Under the pieces are notes generated by a model, which did not search any database, had not been told where the DNA came from, and worked only from the letters and a program-made list of their open reading frames with translations. Positions 5,369-35,149 of a DNA stretch of 35,149 nt are shown here, in pieces. The stretch lies in IMG/VR virus record IMGVR_UViG_3300021964_000232, positions 1 through 35,149 of that record. One strand, 5' to 3'. The number at the start of each line of letters is the position of its first letter. The first letter of the stretch is position 1. The DNA comes from a virus. A program made the position numbers and the translations under genes.

Positions 5369-5814
5369 TCAGCAAAGTTCGTCAGTTGTCTCCATTTAAT
5401 CGCACTACTAATGGCAAAGCCTCTACTGTTGATAGCCTTGAGAATCTCCTCAAGTACACCTACAGTTTCTTCTAGTACAGCAATCTTGGAATTAAGTTTC
5501 ATCATATCTGCATCTGCTTCCACATATTGAGGCAAATCATTCTTCAGTACAGTCTTAGGCCACGGTTCACGTCGAATGCGGTCCAGATCTTCGGTATTGT
5601 TTAGATCTCCTCTATAGTAATCGGATAGAGTGATCCATAGTTCTTTCTTTTTGATTCCTGATGCGCGCATGCGAATTCTAGTATCTGCTAGATGTTTGAG
5701 ATACTTTGCATGTAAATAAGGAATGTTTAGAGCTTCTGAGTCTAGCTCAGTATCATCTAACTTACAATCCTTAGCCCATTCAGCTACTATTTCTTCAATA
5801 TTCAATGTGTTCAC
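5365..5814 (-). CDS. uvsY: Recombination mediator UvsY
   Basis: This is a 149-residue homologue of T4 UvsY (137 residues), the mediator that loads the UvsX recombinase onto gp32-coated single-stranded DNA. The protein is helical and charged. A typical block is a central KKKELWITLSDYYRGDL segment, followed by a C-terminal heptad-like region (LNSKIAVLEETVGVLEEILKAI) that would form the oligomerising coil. The ATG lies 20 nt inside the 3' end of the epimerase gene, and the stop overlaps the uvsW start (ATGA). The position directly before uvsW is the conserved T4-like order and supports the assignment. Confidence 0.9.
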   Translation of the reverse strand: MNTLNIEEIVAEWAKDCKLDDTELDSEALNIPYLHAKYLKHLADTRIRMRASGIKKKELWITLSDYYRGDLNNTEDLDRIRREPWPKTVLKNDLPQYVEADADMMKLNSKIAVLEETVGVLEEILKAINSRGFAISSAIKWRQLTNFAE

Positions 5815-6565
5815 CCTTAAGCAATGCCGGAAGATCCTTCATTATACTGCTTTTTGGGTAAAAGTTCAACTCTTCATTTAGTCTAGTAACATCTGCTTGC
5901 GTGACTTGGGCTTCACCTTGTACTTTCTTGAGAGGTACATCAACGTCACATGCTTCAATAAGTTCTTTGATAGATTGTGTATGACTTGTGCCAACTTCAA
6001 TAACACCTGACACATTAGTATATGTAGGTTGTAGCAATCTCTCAATTACTTGACATACTTCGTCAACATGAATCATGTCTCTATAGTGATCCGTCTTATA
6101 TTTTACTTCGCCACGTTTAATCTTACCAAGCAGTAAGTCGGCGCGGATATCGCTGCTATACACATTGTAGAAACGTAATAGCGCGGCGTCTGAGGGCGCT
6201 ACTTGTTCCATCACTGCCTTGCTAGTAGCATATGGATTCAGGTACCACCACTTCGCATTAGACGAACTAGCCGCGATGATTCTACAGTTCTTTTTCTTAG
6301 CCCACTCGAATACTTTCTTGGATCCCTCTACATTGGTCTCCCAGAATGGATCTGGATTCTTCTTAGACTCATGTACACTTACTTTAGCAGCTAAGTGGAT
6401 CACAGCTTTGAATACGATGTTTTTTCCAAACTGATCAAAGTCAAAGTCATTGATATCTTGACCTGTCTTTAAGTCGATACCATAATAAGCAATTTCTTGC
6501 TCTTTCAATCTCTCACATAAACGGGATCCAATGAAACCGCTAGCGCCTGTTACTAATACTGTCAT
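5795..6565 (-). CDS. NAD-dependent sugar epimerase/dehydratase (extended SDR)
   Basis: This 256-residue protein has an N-terminal Rossmann motif TGASGFIGSRL (residues 6-16, GxxGxxG) that binds NAD(P). It also has HLAAKVSVHES and a catalytic YxxxK in NPYATSK (about residues 111-117) preceded by serines. The C-terminal half carries MIHVDEVCQVI, typical of nucleotide-sugar epimerases. It is shorter than the usual 300-340 residues, mostly in the substrate-binding domain, so the exact sugar is unknown. It sits between a tail gene and uvsY, where T4 has no such gene, so it looks like an acquired metabolic gene. It may supply a sugar nucleotide to the glycosyltransferases at 27842-34236, which is inference. 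Confidence 0.88.
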   Translation of the reverse strand: MTVLVTGASGFIGSRLCERLKEQEIAYYGIDLKTGQDINDFDFDQFGKNIVFKAVIHLAAKVSVHESKKNPDPFWETNVEGSKKVFEWAKKKNCRIIAASSSNAKWWYLNPYATSKAVMEQVAPSDAALLRFYNVYSSDIRADLLLGKIKRGEVKYKTDHYRDMIHVDEVCQVIERLLQPTYTNVSGVIEVGTSHTQSIKELIEACDVDVPLKKVQGEAQVTQADVTRLNEELNFYPKSSIMKDLPALLKGEHIEY

Positions 6566-14400: not shown

Positions 14401-17062
14401 CAGCTTTTGTTTGGACATCACCAGTAGTATAGCTAGATGAGTCTAACTTAGTAGCAATAGCGGCATTAGTATTAGCAAGTGCAGCTTTTGTTTGGACATC
14501 AGCTGTTGTATATGAGGATGAATCTAATTTGGTTGCAATAAATGCGTTTGTGTTACCAAGAGCCGCTTTTGTTTGGACATCAGCTGTTGTATATGATGAC
14601 GAATTTAATTTGGTTGCTATTTGAGCATTGGTATTTGCAAGGTTAGCATTACGAGTAGTGTCTACTGATGCAATGTAAGCATTGGTATTTGCAAGATTGG
14701 TATCTACTGTACTCAATGAGACAGCATTTCCACTAAAGGCTGTAGCACTTGCAGTGATGTCACCAGTAAGAGTTACAGTAGCTGTCTTGCCAAGTTTTTG
14801 ACCAATGTTGGTTGTTACAGTAGTAGCGAAGTTTGGATTGTCGCCCAACGCCGAAGCTAATTCATTAAGTGTATTTAATGACTCAGGAGCAGCATTAATA
14901 ATATTGGTAATCTCTGTGTCAATTCTTGTATTGACGGTTCCAATATAAGCATTTGTATTTGCTAAGTTATTATTACGTGCTGTATCTACCGATGCAATGT
15001 AAGCATTTGTATTAGCGAGAGCTGCTTTGGTTTGTACATCCCCTGTCGTGTATGAAGATGAAGCTAGTTTAGTTGCTATTGCAGCATTGGTGTTAGCCAG
15101 AGCTGCTTTGTCTTGGACATCACCAGTGGTATAGGATGAAGATGCTAACTTAGTAGCAATAGCTGCATTGGTGTTAGCTAATGCGGCTTTAGTTTGGACA
15201 TCGGCAGTTGTATATGAGCTTGAATCTAATTTAGATGCAATGGCAGAGTTGGTGTTGGCCAAAGCTGCCAAGGATTGTACATTAGCTACCTCAGCATAGA
15301 TTGCTGCGTTTGCAACTTGGAGTCTATCATTAACTAACGTATTGACATTAGCAACTTGCATTCTATCGTCAACAAGTATACGGATAGCTGTATTGGTAGC
15401 TACGATACCTGCTCTAGCTACACCGTCAGCTGATGAGCCACCAGATAAAGTATTGATTCTTGCATTGGTATTAGCAAGGTCGGCATTTCTTTGATTATCT
15501 ACTGAGGTGATAAATGCATTTGTGTTAGCGAGTGCTGCTTTGTCCTGTACATCTCCAGTGGTATAGGATGAAGACGCAAGTTTAGTTGCAATAGAAGCAT
15601 TGGTATTAGCCAGAGCTGCCTTATCCTGAATAGCACTAGTAGCTACTAATGTGTTTACGTTAGCAACTTGCATGCGGTCAGATACGAGTGTTCGGATGGC
15701 TGTGTTAGTAGCAACTATGCCTGCTCTTGCTAATCCATCTGTACCTGTACCACCAGACAGAGCAGAAATTCTTGCGTTTGTATTAGCAAGATCCAAACCT
15801 CTTTGATTATCTACTGTGGTAATAAATGCATTTGTATTAGCTAAAGCAGCAAGTGATTGTACGTTTGCTACTTCGGCAAACTTATTTGTACCTACTACTA
15901 CTCTTGCATCTACTTGAGATTCATTGAGACCTGATCCACTACCACCATTTCCGCGAGCAATGGCTTCACTAGCAATTGTTGAACCTGCCGGCAAATTAAT
16001 TGCACCGTTAGCATGTGCTGTAATAATAGCATCTCCAAGTTCAATTGATGAACCTGAAAGATAAAGGTCACGCCATCTCTTTTCTGATGTACCAAGGTCA
16101 TATGTTACGTTTGCACTAGGAACAATATGTGATGAAATGTTTGTTAAGTTTGCAACTTCAAGATAGATACCTGCGTTAGCAACTTCTAAGTATACTGCAG
16201 CGTTTGCAACTTCCAGATACTGGTCTGTACTTCCACCATCACCTGAAATAGTAGCACCTACAAATTTACCTGTAGCTGCATTATATTTTAAATATCTGTT
16301 ATTCTGTTTGACGGAGTCTCTATCGACATCATCGAGAAACTCTAAACGTACTTCACCGCCACCCGATGAACCACCACCCATAGTAGCAGCACGACGAATG
16401 TCAGCTTTAAACTTTTCAATGTCTTTAATTAATGGATCAATACTTGGTGTTTGTCCATCTTGACCTTTGGCACCTACTGGACCTTCTGGACCAGGATTGC
16501 CTTTCTCACCACGAAGACCTGGAACACCTGGTTCCCCGCGGTCACCTTTTTCACCACGTTCGCCCTTGTCACCTTTAACACCTTCAGGACCCTGTTCACC
16601 TTGAACACCCTGAATACCTTGTTCGCCTTGCTCACCTTGAGGACCTTGTTCACCAGTAGCACCAATTGCACCCTGTGGACCTTGAGGACCCATCTCGCCT
16701 TGTTCGCCAAGTAAGCCTCGTGGACCAATTGGACCAGACGAACCTTTAGGACCTGTAAAGCCACGTGGTCCTTGCGAACCTGTTTCACCTTTTTCACCCT
16801 CTTGACCTCGAGGACCACCTGCAGGACCCTGAGGACCTTGTAGACCTGGAGTACCTGGATCACCCTTTGGACCCCTGTCGCCATCTCTGCCATCACGGCC
16901 GGGAACACCCATCGGTCCTTGTTCACCAATAGGGCCACGATCACCCTGAGGGCCAGGTGTTGAATCCAAATGATGAACGCTTTCAGATACGTTCTTCTGA
17001 ACTGCTTTCTCTACGTGCTTTAGAAGTGCTGCTAAAAACTTAGCCTTTTCAACCTCATTCAT
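11432..17062 (-). CDS. Giant collagen-like repeat fibre protein
   Basis: This 1,876-residue protein is probably a trimeric fibre of the virion. Residues 1-36 are a helical head. Residues 37-205 are 56 Gly-X-Y triplets with a single one-residue interruption. A LEFLDDVD...LKYNAATGKFVGA domain follows at about 240-275. Next comes a very long repeat region with 13 copies of an SSYTTxDVQxKAALANTN unit, four STFGxSL(I/V)DDANA modules and several KLxGIExGATADQTAxEI modules. The C-terminus (LEVYNAAGTKIFPS) has no recognised chaperone or lectin domain. Its ATG overlaps the portal gene stop by 8 nt, so it is co-translated with gp20. T4 has no fibre gene at this place. Host binding or head decoration are both possible. 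Confidence 0.9.
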   Translation of the reverse strand: MNEVEKAKFLAALLKHVEKAVQKNVSESVHHLDSTPGPQGDRGPIGEQGPMGVPGRDGRDGDRGPKGDPGTPGLQGPQGPAGGPRGQEGEKGETGSQGPRGFTGPKGSSGPIGPRGLLGEQGEMGPQGPQGAIGATGEQGPQGEQGEQGIQGVQGEQGPEGVKGDKGERGEKGDRGEPGVPGLRGEKGNPGPEGPVGAKGQDGQTPSIDPLIKDIEKFKADIRRAATMGGGSSGGGEVRLEFLDDVDRDSVKQNNRYLKYNAATGKFVGATISGDGGSTDQYLEVANAAVYLEVANAGIYLEVANLTNISSHIVPSANVTYDLGTSEKRWRDLYLSGSSIELGDAIITAHANGAINLPAGSTIASEAIARGNGGSGSGLNESQVDARVVVGTNKFAEVANVQSLAALANTNAFITTVDNQRGLDLANTNARISALSGGTGTDGLARAGIVATNTAIRTLVSDRMQVANVNTLVATSAIQDKAALANTNASIATKLASSSYTTGDVQDKAALANTNAFITSVDNQRNADLANTNARINTLSGGSSADGVARAGIVATNTAIRILVDDRMQVANVNTLVNDRLQVANAAIYAEVANVQSLAALANTNSAIASKLDSSSYTTADVQTKAALANTNAAIATKLASSSYTTGDVQDKAALANTNAAIATKLASSSYTTGDVQTKAALANTNAYIASVDTARNNNLANTNAYIGTVNTRIDTEITNIINAAPESLNTLNELASALGDNPNFATTVTTNIGQKLGKTATVTLTGDITASATAFSGNAVSLSTVDTNLANTNAYIASVDTTRNANLANTNAQIATKLNSSSYTTADVQTKAALGNTNAFIATKLDSSSYTTADVQTKAALANTNAAIATKLDSSSYTTGDVQTKAALANTNAAIATKLDSSSYTTADVQDKAALANTNAYITSVDAARNNNLANTNTYIATKLDSSSYTTADVQTKAALANTNAYIASVDNTRNANLANTNAQIASKLDSSSYTIGDVQTKAALANTNAFIATKLNDSAASTFGKSLIDDANASTARSTLGLGTAATTASSDYATAAQGTKADNALPASSYTTADVQTKAALANTNAYIASVDSTRNANLANTNAFIATKLNDSAASTFGKSLIDDANAGVARTTLGLGTAATTASSDYATAAQGTKADDALPASSYTTGDVQTKAALANTNSYINSNLANTNAFIATKLDDSAASTFGKSLIDDANASTARSTLGLGTAATSATGDFATAAQGALADSALQSETVTSIALNSNSLDYTDENGTTTNIDLSAYLDEDSRAIASGTLNSVSGVVTFTRDDATTFTLDLSDLLDDTNLVTSVAGKNGVVTLDADDIDDTSTTNKFTTAAEITKLSGIETGATADQTAAEIKTAYESNADTNAFTDAEQSKLSGIETGADVTDTTNVVAALTAGTNVTIGADGTISSTDTNTTYSVGDGGLTQKNFTTALNTKLSGIETGATADQTASEILTAIKTVDGSSSGLDADLLDGNHASAFATAAQGTKADAALPKTGGAMTGAITTNSTFDGRDVATDGTKLDGIEPGATADQTAAEIRTLVESASDSNVFTDADHTKLNGIEASATNTADPAITSDGSTPSLAAGITGAEVRSLIGAGTSSSDNATHTGEVTGATSLTVASNVIDADNLKVTGNGTTSQFLRSDGDGTFTWATPTDTNTEYSVGDGGLTTNDFTDADHTKLNGIETGATADQTAAEILTAIKTVDGVASGLDADLLDGNHASAFATAAQGTKADNALPASSYTTGDVQTKAALANTNSAIASKVNTSSLSTFGFSLVDDANAGAARTTLGLGTAATTASSDYATAAQGSLADSATQPGDLATVATSGNYSDLNNVLEVYNAAGTKIFPS
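13510..15620 (-). repeat. Protein-level repeat array in the fibre gene (approximate limits)
   Basis: Twelve of the 13 SSYTTxDVQxKAALANTN units lie here; the thirteenth is near 11720-11765. The spacing is often 27 codons, with insertions of VDxxRNxxLANTN or STFGKSLIDDANA modules. Copies are nearly identical as protein, but many differ at third codon positions, so most units are old; a few neighbours are near-identical and recent. Confidence 0.9.
14364..14501 (-). repeat. Exact 57-nt direct repeat, 81-nt period
   Basis: Bases 14364-14420 recur without a mismatch at 14445-14501. The period of 81 nt is one 27-codon repeat unit, so gain or loss of a copy keeps the frame open. This is the clearest recent duplication inside the fibre array. 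Confidence 0.9.
16448..16954 (-). repeat. Collagen-like Gly-X-Y repeat in the fibre gene
   Basis: This encodes 56 Gly-X-Y triplets (residues 37-205), interrupted once by a single extra Gly after the fifteenth triplet. X and Y are rich in Pro, Gln, Glu, Lys and Arg, typical of bacterial and phage collagen-like stalks that fold as triple helices. Confidence 0.95.
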
Positions 17063-18765: not shown

Positions 18766-19329
18766 TTAACCAGCGACTGTATTAGTCGTGTCACCACCGC
18801 CTGTGGCTACTTTCCAGTAGTCATAAGCAAAGTTAACCTGGAATTCTTGGATTGCATCCTGATCCCAACTGACCTCCATAAGAGATACGTTGGTTGGATA
18901 GATTCCGACAAATTCATATGTTCTCAGAAGATTGCCTTCCTTACCAAATTGCTTAACTGTAGCAACTTGTTTGTAAGATGTAGCACCTTCTGTAGAACCC
19001 ATGCCAGGAAGTCTGGTGTTGCCTTCATGCAGATTGATTTGGTTTGACCAAGTTTCCAATGCATTTCTGATTTGGAAATCTTCATCATTCAAAATCGTTA
19101 CAGTCCAGTCTGAAAAAGTACGGTTACCTGCATACTTGATCTGACGACCAAAGTATGTTTGTGTAATCGTATTAATCGTTGCGTCTGGAATCTGCGCAGC
19201 TCTAACAAGAATTGGAGCGTTTGGAACACTCGGCACTGTTGCTGGAGTCTCGATGGTTACCTCAAATAGGGAACTACGAGCGCCGCCTAATCTAAGGCCT
19301 GACTTAAAGTCGTTTACGTTGAAAGCCAT
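18766..19329 (-). CDS. 19: Tail tube protein gp19
   Basis: This 187-residue protein polymerises into the inner tube of the contractile tail (T4 gp19 has 163). It shows the family pattern: an N-terminal helix MAFNVNDFKSGL, the strand SSLFEVTIETPA, then ILVRAAQIPDATINTI. After these come the YFGRQIKYAGNRTFSDWTV strand pair, which assembles hexameric rings, and NDEDFQIRNALETW. The C-terminal tail (GGGDTTNTVAG) is flexible. The Shine-Dalgarno GAGGAG is strong, and a late-promoter-like box overlaps the sheath gene stop just upstream. Order sheath-tube-portal is the standard T4-like arrangement. Confidence 0.97.
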   Translation of the reverse strand: MAFNVNDFKSGLRLGGARSSLFEVTIETPATVPSVPNAPILVRAAQIPDATINTITQTYFGRQIKYAGNRTFSDWTVTILNDEDFQIRNALETWSNQINLHEGNTRLPGMGSTEGATSYKQVATVKQFGKEGNLLRTYEFVGIYPTNVSLMEVSWDQDAIQEFQVNFAYDYWKVATGGGDTTNTVAG

Positions 19330-25122: not shown

Positions 25123-25866
25123 TTAACCAATCATGTCCATAAGGAGGCCACCGTAACCGGTAGTGACTTCAGTTTCTAATCTTGAAATTTCTTCTTGAGC
25201 TTCGTTATAGATTTGCTGACCATTAAATTGTAAGCCACCAGGAAGAGTCATGCCTTCAAATTTTTTGAGGTTTTCACCCCACTGACGTTTAAACAATTGG
25301 GTAGTATACTCTCTCAACCATCTGTCGCCATACACATCACTATATGTTTCAGGGTCAAGAATTCTATAGCATTCGATTACAATGTATTCACCTTCTGCAA
25401 CATCATCTCTCCAATCCATATCAATATTAAGAGTGTTGCGGTGTCTATGGAATCGGATAGGTTGTTGGCCTACGAATATTTCTTGGAGTGATTCAACATG
25501 TGTCATAGCCATTCTATAGTTGATATAGCTAGCTGATGAGAAGTCAAACAGGTCGTTAAGATGTAACTGATATCTAATATTAAAGATACCACCAGTACTA
25601 AGATTATTACCAATTGGCAAAATTCTTATTACTCCAGTGACAGCTTCTGGAATAGTAATGTATTGATTTACCTTATCTTCGGCTGTAATTTGATGTTTCA
25701 TGAAGATGCGTTCAGTACCATCAAAGTGATAGTCTTGATAGAATTTTAGTGCGTCATCTACTCTATCTTCGAGCTGCTCAGGGTCAACATTAATATCGAT
25801 CACAGGAGCGCCGAGTCTTCTGAGGCAATAATCTACCAATTGTTGTCGTGAAGCTGGGTTTGCCAT
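25123..25866 (-). CDS. 13: Neck protein gp13
   Basis: This 247-residue neck protein (T4 gp13 has 309) completes the head after packaging and binds gp14. Family blocks are SRQQLVDYCLRRLGAPVI and INVDPEQLEDRVDDALKFYQDYHFDG at the N-terminus, with the central pair LNDLFDFSS and YINYRMAMTHVE. RFHRHRNTLNIDMDW and WLREYTTQLFKRQWGENLKKFEG follow. It is the first gene of the minus-strand late block, with a perfect late promoter 28 nt upstream. That promoter overlaps the divergent promoter region of the plus-strand cassette. Confidence 0.95.
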   Translation of the reverse strand: MANPASRQQLVDYCLRRLGAPVIDINVDPEQLEDRVDDALKFYQDYHFDGTERIFMKHQITAEDKVNQYITIPEAVTGVIRILPIGNNLSTGGIFNIRYQLHLNDLFDFSSASYINYRMAMTHVESLQEIFVGQQPIRFHRHRNTLNIDMDWRDDVAEGEYIVIECYRILDPETYSDVYGDRWLREYTTQLFKRQWGENLKKFEGMTLPGGLQFNGQQIYNEAQEEISRLETEVTTGYGGLLMDMIG

Positions 25867-25868
25867 CG

Positions 25869-25897
25869 TTGATCCTTTTTACGTTATGTGGTATATT
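25869..25897 (+). promoter_or_regulatory. Candidate sigma70-like promoter for the plus-strand cassette
   Basis: TTGATC (25869-25874) and TATATT (25892-25897) are separated by exactly 17 nt, a good -35/-10 pair for the host housekeeping sigma factor. TATAAT at 25898-25903 is a second possible -10, but its spacing is poor. The cassette's Shine-Dalgarno follows at 25906. No late box faces this way. Confidence 0.5.
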
Positions 25898-25901
25898 TAT
25901 A
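25894..25901 (-). promoter_or_regulatory. Late promoter TATAAATA for gene 13
   Basis: An exact TATAAATA on the minus strand lies 28 nt before the gp13 ATG. It overlaps the -10 of the plus-strand promoter by 4 nt, so the two promoters cannot be occupied together. Confidence 0.85.
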
Positions 25902-25918: not shown

Positions 25919-26527
25919 ATGCAATTTGAGTTCAAATCAGATACTGGCGAGACCATAAAAACCATTGTCACAACGGAGTGGAACGATAAACTCGAAGAGT
26001 TTTATACAATGGCCTATGAAGAAAAGGGTAAGAAACTTAAATATCTGACAGATAAAAAGCAGTACCAGCCAGATGTTATTGCACAGAAAAACAATGACTA
26101 TTATTTTTATACGGAGATAGATGGTCGAGTATTGTCAGCTCATGTTGTTGATAGATTTGAAGGTATGCCTGATAATTGGATAAGAGTATTCTCTAAATTG
26201 TATAATCTGAAGGAATTCACAACGCATCCGGATCACTATAAGATTAGAGCAATAGATTTTAGTTTGTTTGCAAAGCTAAGTGACAATATATTAATTACAC
26301 AAAACATTACTGATACAGGTGCAATTACATTTGATAATTACAGTAAGACATATAAAAGATATAAGCGACTTTGTAAATACTTTCAACCCATGGTTCCAGA
26401 CTTGACCTTTCGTTTTGATTTTAATGATATAGCTTACATAAACAAAACACCTCAAGTTGTAATATATGCTTCGAAACAACAGCAAGCAATAGAGTGGTTG
26501 AAGGAGTTTGTAGTTCATGAAGATTAA
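25919..26527 (+). CDS. Hypothetical protein, first gene of the plus-strand cassette
   Basis: This 202-residue protein is not recognised. The start is the ATG at 25919, preceded by AAAGGAG (25906-25912); a longer frame from 25886 lacks a ribosome site. The protein is soluble, rich in Tyr, Lys and Phe, with no signal peptide or membrane segment. Predicted strands around NNDYYFYTEIDGRVLSAHVV and QVVIYASKQQQAIEWLKEF could suit an alpha/beta fold such as an acyltransferase, but no GNAT acetyl-CoA motif is visible. Its stop lies 11 nt inside the carbamoyltransferase gene, so it belongs to the same translational unit and probably the same pathway. Confidence 0.85.
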   Translation: MQFEFKSDTGETIKTIVTTEWNDKLEEFYTMAYEEKGKKLKYLTDKKQYQPDVIAQKNNDYYFYTEIDGRVLSAHVVDRFEGMPDNWIRVFSKLYNLKEFTTHPDHYKIRAIDFSLFAKLSDNILITQNITDTGAITFDNYSKTYKRYKRLCKYFQPMVPDLTFRFDFNDIAYINKTPQVVIYASKQQQAIEWLKEFVVHED

Positions 26528-27845
26528 AGGCTTGTCATATGGCTTCCACGATGCCGCTGTTGCTGTGTTTGAAGATACAAAATGCATCTTTGCATCATCT
26601 GCGGAACGATATACGAAGGTAAAGAACGATCCAATTCTTCCGGATTACTTAAAAAAACTTTCGGCAGACCAATCTGTTTATTATGAAGATCACTTTAAGA
26701 AAGATGATAGACTTAAACAGTTCAACATTCCATTTGTTAATGATGTTGATGAGGTATTACATCAAGAGCATCATTGGTCTCATGCAGCTGCTGGATACTT
26801 CACAAGGCCCTTTCAAGAAGAGCCTGTATGTGTTGTCATCGATGCAGTTGGTGAATGGGATACTACATCTATATGGTATAAAGGTGTTAAGGTGCATAGT
26901 TGGGATTATCCAAGGTCACTTGGTCTTATCTACTCAGCGATAACACAATACATTGGTCTAAAGCCAATGGAAGATGAATATATTACTATGGGCTTAGCTG
27001 CCTACGGAGAACCAATTTATGATATGTCCCCATTGCTTGATATCAATTGTCAATACGTCCTTCCCCCTGATATCTTCCCTGCTAATGCTAGACGTGAAGA
27101 TCTTGCTGCAAGCGTTCAATACTTCACTGAAAAGCAGATTCGTAAGATAATGCAGTTAGCTAGAACATTCTCCAATCATTTAGTATATGGAGGTGGTGTA
27201 GCTTTGAATTGTGTAGCCAATAGTATGATTTATAAGATGTTTGACAATGTACACATCTTTCCTAATCCAGGAGATGCGGGTTCTGCTTTTGGTTGTGCAG
27301 CAGCATTGATAAACAAAACTGTTGACTGGTCACCGTATATGGGCTATGATATAAAAACAAATACGAACCCTAAGGAAGTTGTAAATGAACTTTTGGAAAG
27401 ATCCGTTGTCGGAGTCGCTAATGGTAAGGCTGAGTTTGGGCCTCGTGCTCTTGGTAACCGCTCCCTTCTGGCTGACCCTCGCCTTGATATTAAAGATACG
27501 ATTAATGATATCAAAAGACGACAAAGATTCAGACCCTTTGCACCAGCTATCCTTTCTGAGTACGCCCAAGAATACTTCAAAGGACCAATGAACCAATACA
27601 TGCAGTTTGTTGCAAAAGCGAAGCATGATTATGCTAGCGTGACACATGTTGATGGGACAGCAAGGGTACAAGTTGTAGAGCCAGAATGTGAATCTGTGCT
27701 TCGACCAATTTTAGAAGAGTGGTATGATAGGACTGGATGTCCAATTTTGCTGAATACTTCGCTAAATATAAAGGGCCAACCAATGGTCAATGATGAACAA
27801 GATGTACGTAAATTTGAACGTAAGTATGGAGTAAGAGTACTATGA
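26517..27845 (+). CDS. NodU/TobZ-family O-carbamoyltransferase
   Basis: This 442-residue enzyme belongs to a family that transfers a carbamoyl group from carbamoyl phosphate, via carbamoyl-adenylate, to a hydroxyl group. The N-terminal Kae1-like domain has GFHDAA (9-14), the metal ligands H85 and H89 in HHWSHAAA, IDAVGEWD (108-115), and GGGVALN with PGDAGSAFG at about 225-259. The C-terminal domain has AEFGPRALGNRS (305-316), RFRPFAPAI and LLNTSLN. All signatures are present; it is shorter than the usual 550-600 residues, largely by trimmed loops. The acceptor may be a sugar, a natural-product-like molecule or a modified DNA base. AAGGAG lies 11 nt before the ATG, which overlaps the previous gene. 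Confidence 0.93.
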   Translation: MKIKGLSYGFHDAAVAVFEDTKCIFASSAERYTKVKNDPILPDYLKKLSADQSVYYEDHFKKDDRLKQFNIPFVNDVDEVLHQEHHWSHAAAGYFTRPFQEEPVCVVIDAVGEWDTTSIWYKGVKVHSWDYPRSLGLIYSAITQYIGLKPMEDEYITMGLAAYGEPIYDMSPLLDINCQYVLPPDIFPANARREDLAASVQYFTEKQIRKIMQLARTFSNHLVYGGGVALNCVANSMIYKMFDNVHIFPNPGDAGSAFGCAAALINKTVDWSPYMGYDIKTNTNPKEVVNELLERSVVGVANGKAEFGPRALGNRSLLADPRLDIKDTINDIKRRQRFRPFAPAILSEYAQEYFKGPMNQYMQFVAKAKHDYASVTHVDGTARVQVVEPECESVLRPILEEWYDRTGCPILLNTSLNIKGQPMVNDEQDVRKFERKYGVRVL

Positions 27846-28567
27846 AGCACGTAGTATGTATGCGGTGGGGGGATGTTTATTCAGATGAATACGTCACTAA
27901 CCTTAAAGAACAGTTGGATCAACATCTAACTGTCGATTATCAGTTTCACGAATTCACAGATGAAGATATCCCAGACAATGGTTGGGATGAAGTCTCACGT
28001 TTCTTCCAAGACATTAGAGATCCAAGACATTACTCATTTGATGATATGAGAGATTCTGGTGGTTTGTCTCATTTTAAGAAGATTCAACTATTTGGCACTA
28101 ATTTTGGTCTCGAAGGGGATATTGTTTATATGGATCTAGATGTTAAGATTCAGAATAATATTGATTGGCTTTTTGATCTAGATTCCTCCAAGCCTTGGGC
28201 TATTAAGAATCATTGGTTTGCAGGAGAAAGATTCCGTAAGAACTTTGCTATCCACAGATCCCCTATGATTAATACCAGTGTGGTTAAGTGGAGAGATGAT
28301 CAAATGAAACCTGTTTATGAATTTGTAGAGTCAAATCTAGATAAGGTAATGTTTACATACAATGCAATTGATAACTTTCTTCAAGATCAGTTCTGTGGTT
28401 TTCATAACGGCAAATCTCATTTATTCAACTTTTATGATAAAGGTAAAATGGTCAACTTTAATGAAGTGACCGAAGAAGAAATTGGAGAGGCTGATATTGT
28501 CACTTATCCAGGTATGCCTATCTGGGTTAAAGAAGAGCACGTTTTAGGAGGTCAACCCAATGTTTAA
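27842..28567 (+). CDS. Glycosyltransferase-like protein (GT-A type, DxD)
   Basis: This 241-residue protein has the look of a small GT-A glycosyltransferase. An N-terminal strand-turn (MKHVVCMRWGDVYSDEYV) leads to LSHFKKIQLF and then VYMDLDVKIQNN, whose DLD (98-100) would bind the metal and nucleotide-sugar phosphates. A later NTSVVKW and DQFCGFHNG suit the acceptor half. It shares this N-terminal pattern and the DxD spacing with the gene at 33529, a paralogue at the far end of the cassette. It overlaps the carbamoyltransferase stop by 4 nt (ATGA). Donor and acceptor sugars are unknown. Confidence 0.8.
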   Translation: MKHVVCMRWGDVYSDEYVTNLKEQLDQHLTVDYQFHEFTDEDIPDNGWDEVSRFFQDIRDPRHYSFDDMRDSGGLSHFKKIQLFGTNFGLEGDIVYMDLDVKIQNNIDWLFDLDSSKPWAIKNHWFAGERFRKNFAIHRSPMINTSVVKWRDDQMKPVYEFVESNLDKVMFTYNAIDNFLQDQFCGFHNGKSHLFNFYDKGKMVNFNEVTEEEIGEADIVTYPGMPIWVKEEHVLGGQPNV

Positions 28568-29207
28568 TTATACACCTGAAGTAGCTAAAGATTGGCAATC
28601 AGCTTTTAATCGTATTCAAAATGAAATGCCATGGCGTAGTAAGGACTGGATGACAAGTATTGGTCCAGATCAATTACGTTCCAAAAGATGGATTATTGAT
28701 GCGCTTACTCAGTTACAAGAGCGCGAAGAAATTAAAGCACCAACAGAAAATGATTGGGTGGCGCAAATTGCTTCATGGAATAATCCATTCTTATCTCAAA
28801 TGTTAATTGAGTATGGTTATGAAAATATGGTTTGTATGGATATGGATCCAGATGCTAAACTTATTCATAATGCTGCAAATAAAAGATTACGACAGGCATA
28901 TTCAATTGAATACAAGACAAGAGATATTGTCTTTGAGAAGCCTGATTGGTCACAGTTTAATCTAATTATTAATACCTCTTGCGAGCATATGATGCCAATG
29001 AGAGATGTATTTAAAAACAGAACCATTCTACCAGAAACTGTTTTTGTTTTTCAAGGCTCAAATTTATACAGTGAAAAAGGACATATCATGTGTGTTGATT
29101 ATGTAGAGCAACTTATTGACTCGACAGGATTGACTAACGTGTTATATGCAAATGAATTAGATCTTAGTAGACAAAAACGATTCATGGTTATTGGTACATA
29201 TGACTAA
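28560..29207 (+). CDS. SAM-dependent methyltransferase-like protein
   Basis: This 215-residue protein has a probable Rossmann-like methyltransferase fold. VAQIASWNNPFLSQMLIEYG takes the place of the usual glycine-rich motif I. MVCMDMDPDA with acidic ends would contact the SAM ribose, KTRDIVFEKPDW resembles motif II, and LIINTSCEHM resembles the motif IV/post-strand-4 region. The glycines of the classical GxGxG are missing, so SAM binding is not certain. It overlaps the glycosyltransferase by 8 nt and the oxygenase by 8 nt. The target could be a sugar hydroxyl or the product of the neighbouring enzymes. Confidence 0.65.
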   Translation: MFNYTPEVAKDWQSAFNRIQNEMPWRSKDWMTSIGPDQLRSKRWIIDALTQLQEREEIKAPTENDWVAQIASWNNPFLSQMLIEYGYENMVCMDMDPDAKLIHNAANKRLRQAYSIEYKTRDIVFEKPDWSQFNLIINTSCEHMMPMRDVFKNRTILPETVFVFQGSNLYSEKGHIMCVDYVEQLIDSTGLTNVLYANELDLSRQKRFMVIGTYD

Positions 29208-29883
29208 TTATGTCGAACAGGCCAATAAGATTGCAGAGGAGTTTCCAGGCTTCTATTTAAAACTAAACCTACAGTTACCGGAAGAATCTATAAATGAAGT
29301 CCAAGATGTATTCAATGAAGACTTTTTTGTCAAACACCGCGGAAAGAATCATACTGGTTGGATGTCTGCCACTATTCATGGTCTTGATGGCGATTGGTAT
29401 AAGACGATGTCTGGCAAACAATACGGTTACACTGGAGACTCTGATCCATCAATCAATTGGACTTGGACCGAGATCGCAGAATACTGTCCAGAAACAGTCA
29501 GATGGTTAAAGGAAGAATTTCCTTCTGATACCTTTAGACGGGTAAGGTTTATGCTACTTGAACCAGGTGGCTATATTTTAGATCATAGTGATTATAACCC
29601 TAGGAATGGGCCTCCTTCGAAAGGTCCTATCATGAATGCATTCAACTGTTGTATTACACAACCAGATGATTGTGCATTAGTTAATACAAAGTCAGAAATT
29701 AGTGTACCTTTTAACCCTTTAGATGTATACTGCTTTAATAACAATGTAAACCATCATGCTTACAATAATAGTGAAGAAAATCGTTTTCACTTAATTGTTC
29801 ATAATCATGAATATAGAGATGATTTCTTTAAACTGTTTATAGAAAGTTTTGAACAAAATTATGACGGCCATATTTACGAGTGA
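29200..29883 (+). CDS. 2-oxoglutarate/Fe(II) oxygenase-like, aspartyl hydroxylase type
   Basis: This 227-residue protein has the 2-His-1-carboxylate facial triad of 2-oxoglutarate-dependent oxygenases: H129-x-D131 in EPGGYILDHSDYN and H185 or H186 in NHHAYNNSEENR. R195 would hold 2-oxoglutarate. The layout is that of the aspartyl/asparaginyl beta-hydroxylase family, which is also found in small-molecule pathways. The ATG at 29200 is chosen because an upstream extension would need a TTG start; it overlaps the previous gene by 8 nt. The substrate is unknown; a hydroxyl made here could be an acceptor for the carbamoyltransferase or a glycosyltransferase, which is inference. Confidence 0.8.
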   Translation: MTNYVEQANKIAEEFPGFYLKLNLQLPEESINEVQDVFNEDFFVKHRGKNHTGWMSATIHGLDGDWYKTMSGKQYGYTGDSDPSINWTWTEIAEYCPETVRWLKEEFPSDTFRRVRFMLLEPGGYILDHSDYNPRNGPPSKGPIMNAFNCCITQPDDCALVNTKSEISVPFNPLDVYCFNNNVNHHAYNNSEENRFHLIVHNHEYRDDFFKLFIESFEQNYDGHIYE

Positions 29884-31306
29884 AGACTATGCTATTGGTG
29901 GTTCTCCTAAGATCCAATCCAATACTGTTGCCTTAGGTTTTATCAATTATGATGACATCGAGAAGATTGATGATCTACTATGTCGGCATGCTGTACAATC
30001 ACATACTGAGAATACCATTATCAATTTAAATAATCGTAGAGTTGATTATATTGGTTTCCATAATCAACCTGATGATGTTATCGATGCTGCTTACAAAGTT
30101 GGATATAAAGCTGTCATTGTCTGTGATGTTGGTACATTTATCAACAGTCAGCCCTTAATAACAATGTTAAAGTCAATCGATGAAGGATATGCATTGATTG
30201 GTCATATCCTTGATAAGCAAGGCCAATATTATCAAGTACACAATCAATGTTTTGTTCTTGACTTAGAAGCATGGGAACAAGCTGGACGTCCTAGATGGGA
30301 TGATAGGGACAGTGGGCCATTACAGAAGATTATTAGGAGTGGGGAAAACTTTCATGATGATTACACACCTAAAGAATTAGTTAAAGGAAGTGGTAGTGTG
30401 GATTGCTTCAATCCAGCAAACGGTTCAAAGATTATCTCTCAGCTAGTCAAGAACGATTATAAGGTTCGTCCCTTTGACGAAAGTGAAAGAAACGGAAAAT
30501 ACTTTCTATATCATAATGACGAATGGAAAGCAAATTTACGGATCAATGATTATCATGAGAAAAATTTCTATCCAACTTATGGATACCTTTATGCAGTGGA
30601 AACTGAGAAGACTCCTAAGTTTAAGATTGACGATGTAATTACTTCTTATGTTGGTATATGTGCCTCTCTACATCCTTTGAAAATGATTAGACACTTTGAA
30701 CTAGATAATCTACGCCAGATGGTAATGTATGATATTAGTACAGCTGCCGTAATGTTCTATCAAGGGTTAGAAGCATGGGATGGCGAAGATTATCTTTCTG
30801 TTATTAAGAGTTCTGATGCAATTATTGGAACTAGAACAGATGAAGAAATCACAAAGTATTTTGAGGACACTGTTAAATTCTGTCAACCTTGGGACTTTGT
30901 GATGGACATTTTTCATGATACACACAAGATGTATGAGCTTGGTAATTTAATGAGTGATAAGATTCAACGTCAGATTATGCATAAACATAACAAGTCAGAT
31001 AATGTTCTTTTCCATGTGAGTAATATCTTCAACTACGAGATTACAAATCATGATGTGTCAATCTACTATAGATACTTTGCATGGTTGAATCTATTGTTTT
31101 ATGCTAAGAAGTATACCAATAGAACTCACTTTGTTGGGTCAAATATCTTCGGCAGTTCATATGTAAATACTGATGATCTAGACTTACAGAAATGTTTAGA
31201 CTATGTAGACGAGATTACTTTCACCCCATGGCAAGAAGCTCAGAAAGAAAAGTTTAAGGAGAGTATTGTTCTCAGATATGAGAAGAATATGAATGTGTCA
31301 ATATGA
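29861..31306 (+). CDS. Large hypothetical protein, possibly glycosyltransferase-like N-terminus
   Basis: This 481-residue protein starts at the ATG at 29861, since an upstream extension would need TTG. It is not recognised. The first 200 residues contain KAVIVCDVGTFIN, then GYALIGHILDKQGQYYQVHNQCFVLDLEAWEQAG. That resembles a GT-A type transferase that inspects a nucleotide-sugar site, though there is no clean DxD. The second half (ICASLHPLKMIRHFE, LFHVSNIFNYE, FAWLNLLFYAKKY) looks like a separate helical or Rossmann-like domain. There is no signal peptide. It overlaps the oxygenase by 23 nt and the microprotein by 4 nt. Confidence 0.8.
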   Translation: MTAIFTSEDYAIGGSPKIQSNTVALGFINYDDIEKIDDLLCRHAVQSHTENTIINLNNRRVDYIGFHNQPDDVIDAAYKVGYKAVIVCDVGTFINSQPLITMLKSIDEGYALIGHILDKQGQYYQVHNQCFVLDLEAWEQAGRPRWDDRDSGPLQKIIRSGENFHDDYTPKELVKGSGSVDCFNPANGSKIISQLVKNDYKVRPFDESERNGKYFLYHNDEWKANLRINDYHEKNFYPTYGYLYAVETEKTPKFKIDDVITSYVGICASLHPLKMIRHFELDNLRQMVMYDISTAAVMFYQGLEAWDGEDYLSVIKSSDAIIGTRTDEEITKYFEDTVKFCQPWDFVMDIFHDTHKMYELGNLMSDKIQRQIMHKHNKSDNVLFHVSNIFNYEITNHDVSIYYRYFAWLNLLFYAKKYTNRTHFVGSNIFGSSYVNTDDLDLQKCLDYVDEITFTPWQEAQKEKFKESIVLRYEKNMNVSI

Positions 31307-31404
31307 TAAAAAGATTTATTAATCGTATACGTTTGAAATGGAATATGTACAAAATCAAACGTAGCAAGAAAAAGTATAACGATAAATTTACATATCATGG
31401 TTAA
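31303..31404 (+). CDS. 33-residue highly basic microprotein
   Basis: This tiny frame runs from an ATG inside the previous stop (ATGA, 4-nt overlap) to a TAA that lies 8 nt inside the SGNH gene. Twelve of 33 residues are Lys or Arg and only one is acidic; the C-terminus is KYNDKFTYHG. Both overlaps follow the same pattern as all other junctions in the cassette, which argues that it is translated. An amphipathic helix with basic faces is plausible. Candidates include a nucleic-acid or membrane-binding adaptor, or a substrate peptide for nearby enzymes; neither is proven. Confidence 0.6.
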   Translation: MIKRFINRIRLKWNMYKIKRSKKKYNDKFTYHG

Positions 31405-32263
31405 GCATATCTTATCAAATGGTTGTAGTTTTACATCTGGTGGTCTGAGAGAAACAGGCGACAGATATGATGTTGCATGGCCGGCTGTGTTAGCTGAAAA
31501 TATGAAATGTAAAGTTACTAATATTGCAACGTCAGGGGCAGGTAACACAAGGATTTATGATCTAACCATCAAAGAGATATCAGAGAACCCAGGTAAATAT
31601 GATCTCGTTGTTATAATGTGGACAGAGGCTACTAGACTTGATATTCCTGCTTTTGTTATTGATACTACGAATGGTGAAGGTATGGGTTATATCAGTTGTG
31701 ATCCATATAGGACAGCTTTTGAAGGAATGTTTGATTTTAAAACAAATAAGCTAAAACATATCAATGAAATTAATGATGTCAGAGATTGGCAATATAAGAT
31801 GCATCAGTTAGCTGAATTTTGTTCTTATATGAATGATATAGATAACTATGAATACAAGTATATTGGTAGACAAAAGAGAGAATCAATATACAATAAACAC
31901 CTAATGACCGAATGGACAAAAATTATAGGACTACAGAGCTTCTTAAAGTCACAAAACATTCCATTCGTTTTTGCACAAGGTACATCGATGCTTCCTTCTA
32001 ATATCATGTTGAATATTGGATATCAAGATGTTCAGGAAATGATCGGTCAATTTATGATAGAAAATCCCATTGTTGATTTGGTTGATACAAATAACTGGGT
32101 CAATTGGTATCCATGTAGAGCCTTAGGTGGTTGGGATTATACACATAAACTGCAAGACTTTGATCTAAATGAGTCTGCAGATGATTCCCATCCTAATATT
32201 GATGGTAATCGCATGATTGCTGATGACTTTCAGAATGCTTTCGAGAGAATATATGGAACTTGA
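31397..32263 (+). CDS. SGNH/GDSL-family hydrolase-like protein
   Basis: This 288-residue protein has the block pattern of SGNH hydrolases. Block I is SNGCSFTSGG with Ser11 as candidate nucleophile, block II is TSGAGNTR with Gly and Asn50, block III is VVIMWTEATR, and block V is DDSHPN with Asp262 and His265. The usual block I GDS is replaced by GCS, as in many phage and sugar-esterase members. Such enzymes add or remove acetyl esters on polysaccharides. Within a cassette of glycosyl- and carbamoyltransferases, sugar deacylation or acyl transfer is a reasonable inference. It overlaps the microprotein by 8 nt. Confidence 0.83.
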   Translation: MVKHILSNGCSFTSGGLRETGDRYDVAWPAVLAENMKCKVTNIATSGAGNTRIYDLTIKEISENPGKYDLVVIMWTEATRLDIPAFVIDTTNGEGMGYISCDPYRTAFEGMFDFKTNKLKHINEINDVRDWQYKMHQLAEFCSYMNDIDNYEYKYIGRQKRESIYNKHLMTEWTKIIGLQSFLKSQNIPFVFAQGTSMLPSNIMLNIGYQDVQEMIGQFMIENPIVDLVDTNNWVNWYPCRALGGWDYTHKLQDFDLNESADDSHPNIDGNRMIADDFQNAFERIYGT

Positions 32264-33557
32264 AGAAGAGACAAAGGTTAAGTGGTTTTGCCCTGAACCG
32301 TTTGCTGCTATTACAACTGATACAACTGGATTATATAAGCCATGTTGTGCAACGGTTGGTATGGATGGATACGGGTGCTCTGTTTCATCACATACACCTA
32401 TCGAGGCTATGAATTCAGATGCAGCAAAAACTTTACGAAAAGCGTTTATAGAAGACGATAAAAAAACATTAGAGAAAACTTGTAAGACCTGTATGGTCCA
32501 AGAAGAAGGTGGTATTCGTTCCCATAGACAATACTACAATGAGAGGTATACAAAAACACAAGGAGATGAACCGCCAGAATTTGGTCACCATATGTTTAAG
32601 CTAGTTGATTTGGTTGAGAAGGTCAAGAAGGACCCTGAAGCTGATATTGACCCTGAGTATTTTCATACGATGGAGCATACCGCAGGAGGTGGTAATTACT
32701 GTAATCTAAAATGCGCAATGTGTACAGCTAGTTCTAGCAGCTCCTTTGCTAAGGAATCATATGATCTCAATGAAGTATTTGGAATTGCTCATAAACAAAG
32801 ATTTGGTAAACATAAGTTTACACCGCTGGTATTAGATAAAACAAACAAAGAAATTAAAGAAAGAATTCTTCCTAATCTTAGCGAGATAAAATTGACAGGT
32901 GGTGAGCCTTTAGCTATTCCATATAACTACGACTTGCTTAAACATTCTGTCTACAGTGGGTACTCAGAAAATCAAACACTACGAATTATTACTAATGGTA
33001 CTATGACCCCAAAGCACCATGGTATTGATATCTTTGATATTATTCCGCGATTTAATAAAGTTATCATAAATGTTTCTATCGAGGCTTGGGGTAGTAGAAA
33101 TGATTATATACGTTATCCAAGTGATTGGAAAACTATTCTCAAGAATGCAATGAGTTTAGCAAGATTTGAAAACTGTACTGTTACGTTTGTATCAACCATC
33201 AATGCATTGAACATTGGGTATCTTAATGAGATAATTCAGTACAATCCTGACACATTACTCAAGCCAGTTGCTGTCTCCTATGTGATAGATGGTCATCCAA
33301 CAGGTATGAACATATCTGCTATTCCAGACGACATTAAAGAACAATATATAGATAAAATCTACAGTCTACCATTAGATGTTTCTAAGATGCTTCAACCTCA
33401 CGTAGAGATGCTTGAGAATAAAGAGCACTCACCATTAGAGATGAATACCCTGTTGACTAGAATGGTAGAACGTGATAGAATAAGGAATACTAACCTTTTA
33501 GAACTCTGGCCAGAATGGACCCCATATTATGAAGATTTTCTGCGTACGCATCGGTGA
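32253..33557 (+). CDS. Radical SAM enzyme with N-terminal auxiliary-cluster cysteines
   Basis: This 434-residue protein starts at the ATG at 32253; longer starts at 32223 or 32235 are possible but overlap the SGNH gene more. The radical SAM motif is C150-x3-C154-x2-C157 (YCNLKCAMC), with KLTGGEP further on for SAM binding. Before it lie further cysteines at 13, 31, 32, 42, 77 and 80 in CPEP, KPCC and CKTC contexts, resembling a SPASM/twitch auxiliary iron-sulfur site placed at the N-terminus instead of the C-terminus. Such enzymes act on peptides, sugars or cofactors. It overlaps the SGNH gene by 11 nt and the last glycosyltransferase by 29 nt. The substrate is unknown. Confidence 0.88.
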   Translation: MELEEETKVKWFCPEPFAAITTDTTGLYKPCCATVGMDGYGCSVSSHTPIEAMNSDAAKTLRKAFIEDDKKTLEKTCKTCMVQEEGGIRSHRQYYNERYTKTQGDEPPEFGHHMFKLVDLVEKVKKDPEADIDPEYFHTMEHTAGGGNYCNLKCAMCTASSSSSFAKESYDLNEVFGIAHKQRFGKHKFTPLVLDKTNKEIKERILPNLSEIKLTGGEPLAIPYNYDLLKHSVYSGYSENQTLRIITNGTMTPKHHGIDIFDIIPRFNKVIINVSIEAWGSRNDYIRYPSDWKTILKNAMSLARFENCTVTFVSTINALNIGYLNEIIQYNPDTLLKPVAVSYVIDGHPTGMNISAIPDDIKEQYIDKIYSLPLDVSKMLQPHVEMLENKEHSPLEMNTLLTRMVERDRIRNTNLLELWPEWTPYYEDFLRTHR

Positions 33558-34236
33558 TAAGTATGGACCTCAATATGAGAAGTACCTAGAAGAGAAGCTA
33601 CCTGAATATGATTTTCATTGGATCCGTACACCATATGATAGACGTGTGCAATTACAATGGAACAAGATGGCCATTATGAACATGGATATCGATGAGCCTG
33701 TATGTGTGATGGATATCGATGTTCTACTTATTAATAACTATAGGGAAGTGTTTGAGTATCCAATTAAACGTGGACAGTTCTTAGCTATGCCTGGTTGGTG
33801 GCGTGATAATGATTACCATGAATTCAAGATTAATGGTGGCTTTCAGAAATATTATCCAACAGACATGAAATATGTATATGACAAGTTTATGCAAGATCCG
33901 TTACATTGGCAACGATACTATATCGAAGAAGGATATACGACAGGTCCAGTGAATGGTGAACAATATTTTGTTGAGAGTAGTGCTAGAGAGAATCTAGAAG
34001 TTGACACATTGCCAGAGGCATGGTTCTGTCGTATGCTTAGTGATAAAACATATGATGAAGAGCCGTACTACTATACGGAATGGCTCGCAAAGAAAAACCA
34101 GAAGTACTGTGACTTAACTGGTAATGACTTCATGTTCTTAGATGGGGAATTCCATGAGGATATTAAGTTTGCGCATTTCACACATAGTCTTAATAAACCT
34201 CATGAATGGAAATATTACTCAGAATTCTCTTCTTGA
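33529..34236 (+). CDS. Glycosyltransferase-like protein (GT-A type, DxD), paralogue of 27842-28567
   Basis: This 235-residue protein closes the cassette. The start pattern MKIFCVRIGDKYGPQYEKYL parallels MKHVVCMRWGDVYSDEYV of the first glycosyltransferase. KMAIMNM leads to VCVMDIDVLLINN with the metal-binding DID at 62-64. A tryptophan-rich segment (MPGWWRDN) and INGGFQKYY suit the acceptor side. The gene overlaps the radical SAM gene by 29 nt, the longest overlap in the cassette. Its 3' end overlaps, head to head with the opposite strand, the last 22 nt of the minus-strand gene 34215-34781. Confidence 0.8.
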   Translation: MKIFCVRIGDKYGPQYEKYLEEKLPEYDFHWIRTPYDRRVQLQWNKMAIMNMDIDEPVCVMDIDVLLINNYREVFEYPIKRGQFLAMPGWWRDNDYHEFKINGGFQKYYPTDMKYVYDKFMQDPLHWQRYYIEEGYTTGPVNGEQYFVESSARENLEVDTLPEAWFCRMLSDKTYDEEPYYYTEWLAKKNQKYCDLTGNDFMFLDGEFHEDIKFAHFTHSLNKPHEWKYYSEFSS

Positions 34237-34781
34237 GTTTCTCCTAGCAACATTGGGGCAGCAGCTGCTAGCACTTCAAGTGTAGATTGTGCTTTACGGA
34301 TCTTTGACTTTGCAACCTTGTCTTGACTGCCACGAACCTTTTCTTGTTCAAAGATTTGAATCTTCATAGCAAACAAATCTTCTTTTGAAACAGTCTTAGT
34401 AAGAACTTCCATAATATCTTGATCTTTGTAGACTGTCTTGATACGGCCACCCGCACTACCTTTGTTTTTACTGATCCAGCTTTCTTTATTATCTAACTTA
34501 TGCCGAAGATCATTGATCTCTTCTTGTAGTACGTTATAATTTTCTACTTTTTGTTGCCAGTCACGCTTTTCTTTATTAGCTGCTTCATGTTTACGTTGAA
34601 GATCTTCAAGAGTAGTCCATTTCATCAATTGAACATAATCCTCATCTTCTGGATTATCCATATGTACAATGAATCCCTCAATGTGATTTTCGGGACGTTG
34701 AAATCTAACTTCTACGATTGTTTGATTATCGTCTACAAATAGAGTTTCAATAGGGGTTTCGTTCTTAGGTAGAACTGCCAT
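34215..34781 (-). CDS. Hypothetical coiled-coil protein
   Basis: This 188-residue protein is not recognised. A beta-rich N-terminal part (residues 1-55, including TIVEVRFQRPENHIEGFIVHM) is followed by a long charged coiled coil (about 58-100: EDLQRKHEAANKEKRDWQ, then EEINDLRHKLDNKE). After that comes a basic linker and a helical C-terminus ending EVLAAAAPMLLGETQ. It has a GAGGAA ribosome site. Its 3' end overlaps the convergent cassette gene by 22 nt. It stands between virion genes and may be a virion or baseplate protein, which is a guess from position only. Confidence 0.8.
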   Translation of the reverse strand: MAVLPKNETPIETLFVDDNQTIVEVRFQRPENHIEGFIVHMDNPEDEDYVQLMKWTTLEDLQRKHEAANKEKRDWQQKVENYNVLQEEINDLRHKLDNKESWISKNKGSAGGRIKTVYKDQDIMEVLTKTVSKEDLFAMKIQIFEQEKVRGSQDKVAKSKIRKAQSTLEVLAAAAPMLLGETQEENSE

Positions 34782-34807: not shown

Positions 34808-35149
34808 TCATAGTTTAATAACGTAAAATGTAATAGTTTCTGTTGTGGTCAAGCCACCAGTTGGGAAATTACGGGATCTATAATCGTTACCATTAATAAA
34901 CTGATTGTATTGTGTTGTACCAGATCTTTGTGTATCGATGGTAGCACCTCTAGAATTTACAGTTTCATATCCTGAAGGTGCTGATGTTGACCAAGCATAT
35001 CTAATACCTGCAGAAGATTGTACAGCTTGATATCTTACAAACTCTTGAAGTAAGGATTGGAAACTTGCATCTGCTAAGGGCTGAATTCTATTATTTGTTG
35101 AATCCCATCCAGCTGGAGCTGTGAAACCAGCTGATGTCCCTGCTGCATA
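34808..35149 (-). CDS. Probable virion structural protein, C-terminal part, cut by window edge
   Basis: An open frame of 113 codons enters from the right edge and stops with TGA at 34808-34810. It is rich in Ser, Thr, Gly, Asn and Gln, with segments such as APAGWDSTNNRIQPLADASF and YAWSTSAPSGYETVNSRGAT. Composition and the beta-strand pattern resemble fibre, baseplate or other adhesin-like phage proteins. No start codon is within the window, so the full length is unknown. It lies 26 nt upstream of the coiled-coil gene on the same strand. Confidence 0.7.
   Translation of the reverse strand, partial: YAAGTSAGFTAPAGWDSTNNRIQPLADASFQSLLQEFVRYQAVQSSAGIRYAWSTSAPSGYETVNSRGATIDTQRSGTTQYNQFINGNDYRSRNFPTGGLTTTETITFYVIKL

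Follow-up and report, generated by a model that had tools for sequence, protein, structure and literature searches.

The host recognition cluster (HRC) of pelagimyophages is a large, hypervariable, “nonsyntenic” island between VrlC and gp14 that carries radical SAM cassettes as well as fibres and GT8 glycosyltransferases, and it has been suggested to alter the host O-chain as a guard against co-infection (Zaragoza-Solas et al. 2020, PMC7029224). The same paper notes that LPS synthesis commonly involves GT8 enzymes. LPS gene clusters have also been described in the cyanomyophages P-SSM2 and S-SSM7 (Sullivan et al. 2010, PMC3037559), and a phage-encoded carbamoyltransferase is known to act on 5-hydroxymethylcytosine (5hmC; Yang et al. 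2021, PMC8670742). A further point of comparison is the cultured Pelagibacter phage Mosig EXVC030M (MT647606), whose genome is a draft, 76% complete, and with which a co-cultured podophage was reported (PMC7892664).

The 35-kb fragment analyzed here (35,149 nt, referred to as the window) is an IMG/VR virus record and derives from a T4-like myovirus, as judged from its core genes. Its recognizable minus-strand core comprises gp46/gp47, gp55, UvsW, capsid, scaffold, protease, portal, tube, sheath, terminase, gp15, gp14, and gp13. The terminase has its closest relatives in the pelagiphages HTVC008M and Mosig (58–60% identity); relatives of the capsid are mixed. Five exact T4-type late promoter motifs are present in the window, all on the minus strand and each 29–45 nt before a late gene. 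A 1876-aa fibre-like gene (11432–17062, minus strand) lies between portal (gp20) and protease (gp21), an odd position for a T4-like core, and a related gene occupies the same spot in the related contig L002. Downstream of the capsid gene is a second tail-tube-like gene (phrog_45; 6578–7123, minus strand), the usual one being at 18766–19329.

Between gp13 and the minus-strand genes f_34215 and f_34808, ten plus-strand ORFs (g1–g10) occupy positions 25919–34236, so that the cassette is bounded by minus-strand genes on both flanks. The relevant features are as follows.

5795..6565, minus strand: NDP-sugar epimerase (phrog_540; 38% identity to Mosig_00096)
25123..25866, minus strand: left flank, neck protein gp13 (phrog_211)
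25894..25901, minus strand: TATAAATA, a T4-type late promoter motif belonging to gp13 that falls within the 5' edge of the cassette
25919..26527, plus strand: g1, 202 aa, no family assigned (sole relative in the viral-contig scan is the L002 copy, 46%)
26517..27845, plus strand: g2, NodU/TobZ-type O-carbamoyltransferase, 442 aa (PF16861, 2.6e-48; PF02543, 7e-40; phrog_1601)
27842..28567, plus strand: g3, DxD glycosyltransferase-like, 241 aa (weak phrog_1962 match; DLD motifs)
28560..29207, plus strand: g4, class I methyltransferase-like, 215 aa (family profile matches solved methyltransferases)
29200..29883, plus strand: g5, Asp/Asn beta-hydroxylase-type (AspH-type) 2-oxoglutarate oxygenase (PF05118, 1.3e-8, above cut-off; HxD motif)
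29861..31306, plus strand: g6, conserved family without assigned function, 481–485 aa (13-member alignment A9)
31303..31404, plus strand: g7, possible 33-aa basic microprotein (85% identical in L002)
31397..32263, plus strand: g8, SGNH/DUF6071 protein, 288 aa (PF19547, 7.5e-7; weak GDSL matches)
32217..33557, plus strand: g9, N-terminal twitch-domain radical SAM protein (NF033640, 1.8e-79, above cut-off)
33529..34236, plus strand: g10, DxD glycosyltransferase, GT8-like, 235 aa (weak GT8 PDB match)
34215..34781, minus strand: f_34215, small accessory gene travelling with the cassette (in 27 of 27 distinct f_34808 loci)
34808..35149, minus strand: f_34808, C-terminal part of a putative fibre-like structural gene (308 aa in L002; relative Mosig_00097)

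All nine cassette junctions overlap, by 11, 4, 8, 8, 23, 4, 8, at least 11, and 29 nt when a plausible ATG is taken for each ORF; other start choices alter these lengths, and the overlap stays. Overlap alone was rejected as evidence of coupling, as about half of the minus-strand junctions elsewhere in the window overlap too. Because it is so common in this phage, the case for a real cassette rests on conservation. A sigma-70-like site before g1 (25869–25897) was set aside as no better than dozens elsewhere in the region; it overlaps the gp13 late promoter, and we therefore claim no timing from it.

In contig L002 (IMGVR_UViG_3300012920_000136) the ten ORFs all recur at the same site and in unchanged order; no other relative has the complete set. 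Cassette ORFs are 78–95% identical between the two contigs, except g1 (46%) and g8 (63%). Against L002, dN/dS is 0.013–0.07 for g2, g4, g5, g6, g9, and g10, indicating strong purifying selection, compared with 0.25 for g1 and 0.21 for the fibre-like flank; synonymous sites of g3 and g8 are saturated. The divergence of g1 and g8 looks as if these genes had been replaced or were under diversifying pressure, and f_34215 (67% identity) and f_34808 (60%) are likewise divergent.

A preliminary description of this DNA had reported ten overlapping plus-strand genes between minus-strand genes, which the junctions and L002 confirm, and the enzyme families it named were right (PF02543/PF16861, PF05118, NF033640, DUF6071, DxD glycosyltransferases, and a methyltransferase-like protein). 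Catalytic motifs are present in the cassette enzymes, except that the glycine-rich motif I of g4 is degenerate (alignment A6), and the g10 family has an invariant DID and a C-terminal HFTH..KPH (alignment A5). Hydropathy analysis found no transmembrane segment in any of the ten proteins. Some starts allow alternatives: the 5'-most ATG of g1 is at 25886, with the better ribosome-binding site (AAGGAG) at 25919; g5 starts at TTG 29191 or ATG 29200, and g9 may start at 32223–32253. The g6 protein belongs to a family with relatives in divergent phages and is not an orphan. Its 13-member alignment gave no Pfam, PDB, or profile link, the best hint being a methyltransferase-like stretch (E 0.08), and an AlphaFold model built from three sequences (pLDDT 40) was not used.

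The radical SAM protein g9 matches NF033640 with 267.7 bits (curated cut-off 170), and its CxxxCxxC motif is present as CNLKCAMC. With a 33-aa ORF two genes upstream of the radical SAM gene, and carbamoyltransferases of the g2 class working in antibiotic pathways, the cassette might make a peptide or small-molecule natural product, g7 being the possible precursor of a radical SAM-modified peptide. We consider this highly improbable, since g9 falls far below the cut-off of all radical SAM peptide maturase (RiPP) models, g7 was found in L002 alone (the screen of most relatives covered ORFs of ≥ 60 aa), and the relatives are dominated by glycan enzymes. Despite its identity in L002, g7 is too short to judge and is the weakest member of the cassette.

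The carbamoyltransferase g2, whose solved relatives are TobZ and GdmN, aligns with TobZ, GdmN, and NovN over the catalytic C-terminal domain, but those enzymes have antibiotic substrates and identity is low, so that their substrates are not transferable to g2. Its membership in the same superfamily as the phage enzyme that carbamoylates 5hmC (PMC8670742) raises the idea that g2 and the glycosyltransferases act on bases of the phage genome. The 5hmC enzyme co-occurs with a thymidylate-synthase-family hydroxymethylase (PMC8670742), whereas most window relatives have none. Among carbamoyltransferase or module relatives (19 records plus 10 further ones; the window itself is a fragment), PF00303 was absent from 18 of 19, including HTVC008M, the circular C48C1, and the draft Mosig, and from 7 of the 10; the other three have a divergent PF00303 protein, so that base modification may still apply to some phages. 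Glycosyltransferase-flanked carbamoyltransferases were also reported on unmodified contigs (PMC8670742). Carbamoylation of 5hmC in DNA is thus unlikely in general, and we give very little credence to base hypermodification as the role of this cassette.

We analyzed linkage in 80 loci fetched with f_34808 alone, without the cassette as query, and retained 27 distinct loci with ≥ 8 kb downstream after near-copies had been removed by a 4-mer threshold, on which the counts depend. Most are metagenome fragments without known hosts. Families were counted with iteratively built profiles, broad for glycosyltransferases and radical SAM proteins and narrower for the methyltransferase, f_34215, and f_34808. 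A glycosyltransferase, a g4-family methyltransferase, and f_34215 were present in all 27 loci, along with radical SAM (24), carbamoyltransferase (15), SGNH (13), and oxygenase (5) genes. As a control, the cassette families were absent from seven of eight distinct gp13 loci with ≥ 6 kb upstream, the exception being the L002 contig. A reciprocal scan with the methyltransferase gave 39 distinct loci that extended 5 kb to either side; f_34215 or f_34808 was found in 28 of them, and the other 11, which have neither gene, are mostly radical-SAM-rich clusters.

Gene order is also partly conserved. Outward from f_34215, the glycosyltransferase precedes the methyltransferase in 32 of 34 cases, and the methyltransferase precedes the carbamoyltransferase in 17 of 20. 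The block lies on the strand opposite to f_34215 in 20 cases and on the same strand in 14. It runs head-to-tail with f_34215 in 18 of 46 distinct contexts with intergenic gaps of −44 to +52 nt, with which a separate promoter hardly fits. An NDP-sugar epimerase sits between f_34808 and f_34215 in about half of the relatives (25 of 52 contexts), and in the window it is near the capsid gene. A DegT sugar aminotransferase is present in 9 of 15 records, and GT8 enzymes, the epimerase, and DegT recur with the cassette families in divergent phages. An ordered sub-block, glycosyltransferase–methyltransferase–oxygenase–g6–glycosyltransferase, recurs in L236–L239, L241, and L251, and in changed form in L245 and L262, with the other end towards f_34215 in some loci; the g4 and g6 relatives in these phages are only ∼20–33% identical.

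Tail-fibre regions are recombination hot spots, and linkage there need not mean shared function. A fibre-adjacent island could gather unrelated enzyme genes that share a site and no pathway, which would account for the highly variable content, with carbamoyltransferase, SGNH, radical SAM, and oxygenase genes gained and lost among relatives, and for HTVC008M, which has its carbamoyltransferase cluster at another location and lacks both f_34808 and f_34215. Such an assortment would not be expected to place a glycosyltransferase and a methyltransferase in every testable f_34808 locus, to conserve part of their order, or to keep the sub-block together in divergent phages, and we judge it improbable. 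The preliminary interpretation, one glycan-type pathway acquired and inherited as a unit with its strand switch, therefore holds in part. Its pathway is supported by families that recur together in divergent phages with epimerase, DegT, and GT8 enzymes, and a check of relatives for genes occurring singly or in random combinations did not yield that pattern. Inheritance as one unit is not supported in the form proposed, with four gene types gained or lost outside L002, and neither is a fixed strand switch, as the block occurs in both orientations.

Chromosomal relatives of the g4 methyltransferase are also present in many Rhizobium-type genomes (L215–L218, L220–L227, L229, and L230), where they occupy a conserved position next to an ABC transporter-like protein of 905 aa and have neighbors that, judged by eye from their sequences, resemble glycosyltransferases; this setting would be in keeping with glycan work. 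The module is carried on contigs binned to Rhodobiaceae, Candidatus Pelagibacter, and gammaproteobacterial MAGs (L212, L213, and L231), all of which look like phage contigs, and L212 and L231 also have f_34808 and f_34215. Three single phage loci (L292, L302, and L303) have ≥ 7 twitch-family radical SAM genes.

A role of the cassette as a glycan assembly and decoration module is well supported by gene content: the epimerase, the aminotransferase, several glycosyltransferases, the flavin/radical enzymes, and the methyl-, carbamoyl-, and SGNH enzymes all fit, and we infer that the cassette genes form one pathway. Neither a Wzx flippase (PF01943) nor an initiating phosphoglycosyltransferase (PF02397) was found in 15 records. 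With both absent and no transmembrane segments, these phages are unlikely to encode a full O-antigen or capsule route. The acceptor is likely cytosolic, either a phage structural protein or, on the inner side of the membrane, a core glycolipid of the host.

The host alternative follows the published reading of the HRC island (PMC7029224): soluble enzymes would modify the LPS core or a lipid-linked glycan at the inner membrane face, changing the receptor and blocking superinfection. The place of GT8 enzymes in LPS synthesis and the Rhizobium neighborhood of g4 are consistent with it, and cytosolic core-type enzymes would need no flippase. Against it stand the absence of a flippase and an initiating transferase and the head-to-tail arrangement with structural genes in 18 of 46 contexts, which implies late action, when exclusion would be less useful; nor would this reading lead one to expect invariable linkage with a single fibre-like gene. 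Host-surface remodelling is a serious possibility, though one we would hesitate to adopt.

The preliminary description had offered the host surface and virion fibres as possible targets; we prefer a virion fibre or baseplate protein as acceptor. The grounds are the invariable association with f_34808 and f_34215, the layout shared with structural genes in ∼40% of contexts, and the epimerase among structural genes. The f_34808 protein is probably a virion component. In relatives its gene follows a ∼2000-aa VrlC-sized gene (VrlC itself lies outside the window), its composition is Ser/Thr-rich and Lys-poor (26% and 2%, respectively), and its neighbors are fibre-like. Fibres that bear no glycan are, however, often rich in Ser/Thr as well. 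Searches with f_34808 returned no PHROG or PDB match and no annotated relative, and a Foldseek search of BFVD and PDB with the confidently predicted structure of f_34215 (pLDDT 83) gave nothing significant.

Our leading reading, adopted tentatively, is that of a cytosolic glycan module whose likeliest acceptor is a phage structural protein, with f_34808 as first candidate. The g3 and g10 glycosyltransferases would assemble a short glycan, drawing on nucleotide sugars supplied by the host or made by the phage; the carbamoyltransferase g2, the methyltransferase-like g4, the oxygenase g5, the SGNH protein g8, and the radical SAM protein g9 would modify it; and the product would be attached to the structural protein, presumably f_34808, leaving virions with a tail or baseplate part that bears a variable sugar. 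Linkage of glycosyltransferase genes to f_34808 in every distinct locus is a feature expected of virion glycosylation, provided that f_34808 is indeed structural. Counting against this reading are the 11 methyltransferase loci with neither flank gene nearby, the location of the window cassette on the other strand, where no exact late promoter motif was found in the window, and the unexplained g1 and g6. A bolder version, plausible though less likely than not, is that ocean T4-like phages share a widespread glycosylation system dedicated to a single tail or baseplate protein, f_34808, in which acceptor, f_34215, sugar-nucleotide enzymes, and exchangeable transferases and decorators would form one locus specifying a phage-variable sugar signature on the virion.

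Many ocean T4-like phages thus have a sugar-building and sugar-decorating block beside a fibre-like gene, of which the ten-gene cassette is one variant. Should the virion be the target, the tails of abundant ocean phages would be elaborately sugar-modified, a little-explored layer of phage–host recognition; should it be the host, the module would be a late-acting exclusion system. In either case, constant linkage to f_34808 narrows an ill-defined hypervariable island to one precise question for a cultured phage, namely whether the sugars end up on the virus itself or on the infected cell.

Compared with the cyanomyophage LPS clusters, the locus shares sugar genes and carbamoyltransferases of unassigned function in T4-like marine phages, but those clusters lie near hli03/phoH and tRNAs instead of beside neck and fibre genes (PMC3037559), and their carbamoyltransferases are only ∼26–30% identical to g2. 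In Mosig, the plus-strand block Mosig_00082–00094, with 12 of 12 junctions overlapping, converges on relatives of f_34215 and f_34808 and includes relatives of g2, g3, g4, g8, and g10. In place of g1, g5, g6, and g7 it has other radical SAM genes together with nitroreductases and an aminotransferase, and on its left it is flanked not by gp13 but by a different minus-strand set that includes AspH and desaturase genes. The gap between this divergent AspH set and the cassette (Mosig 60969–60989; L131 8970–8990) has TATAAATA on both strands, possibly a bidirectional late promoter.

The site of the window cassette is that of the published HRC (PMC7029224). It lies in the same interval, with gp13/gp14 on one side and f_34808 on the other, has glycosyltransferases and a radical SAM gene, and varies between relatives. 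The superinfection-block idea in the preliminary description had already been published for this island (PMC7029224). The term “nonsyntenic” understates the regularity of the locus, which is an ordered module tied to f_34808, f_34215, and often an epimerase, in both orientations. This analysis adds the recognition of that module, its tie to a single fibre-like gene, and a cultured phage that carries a version of it.
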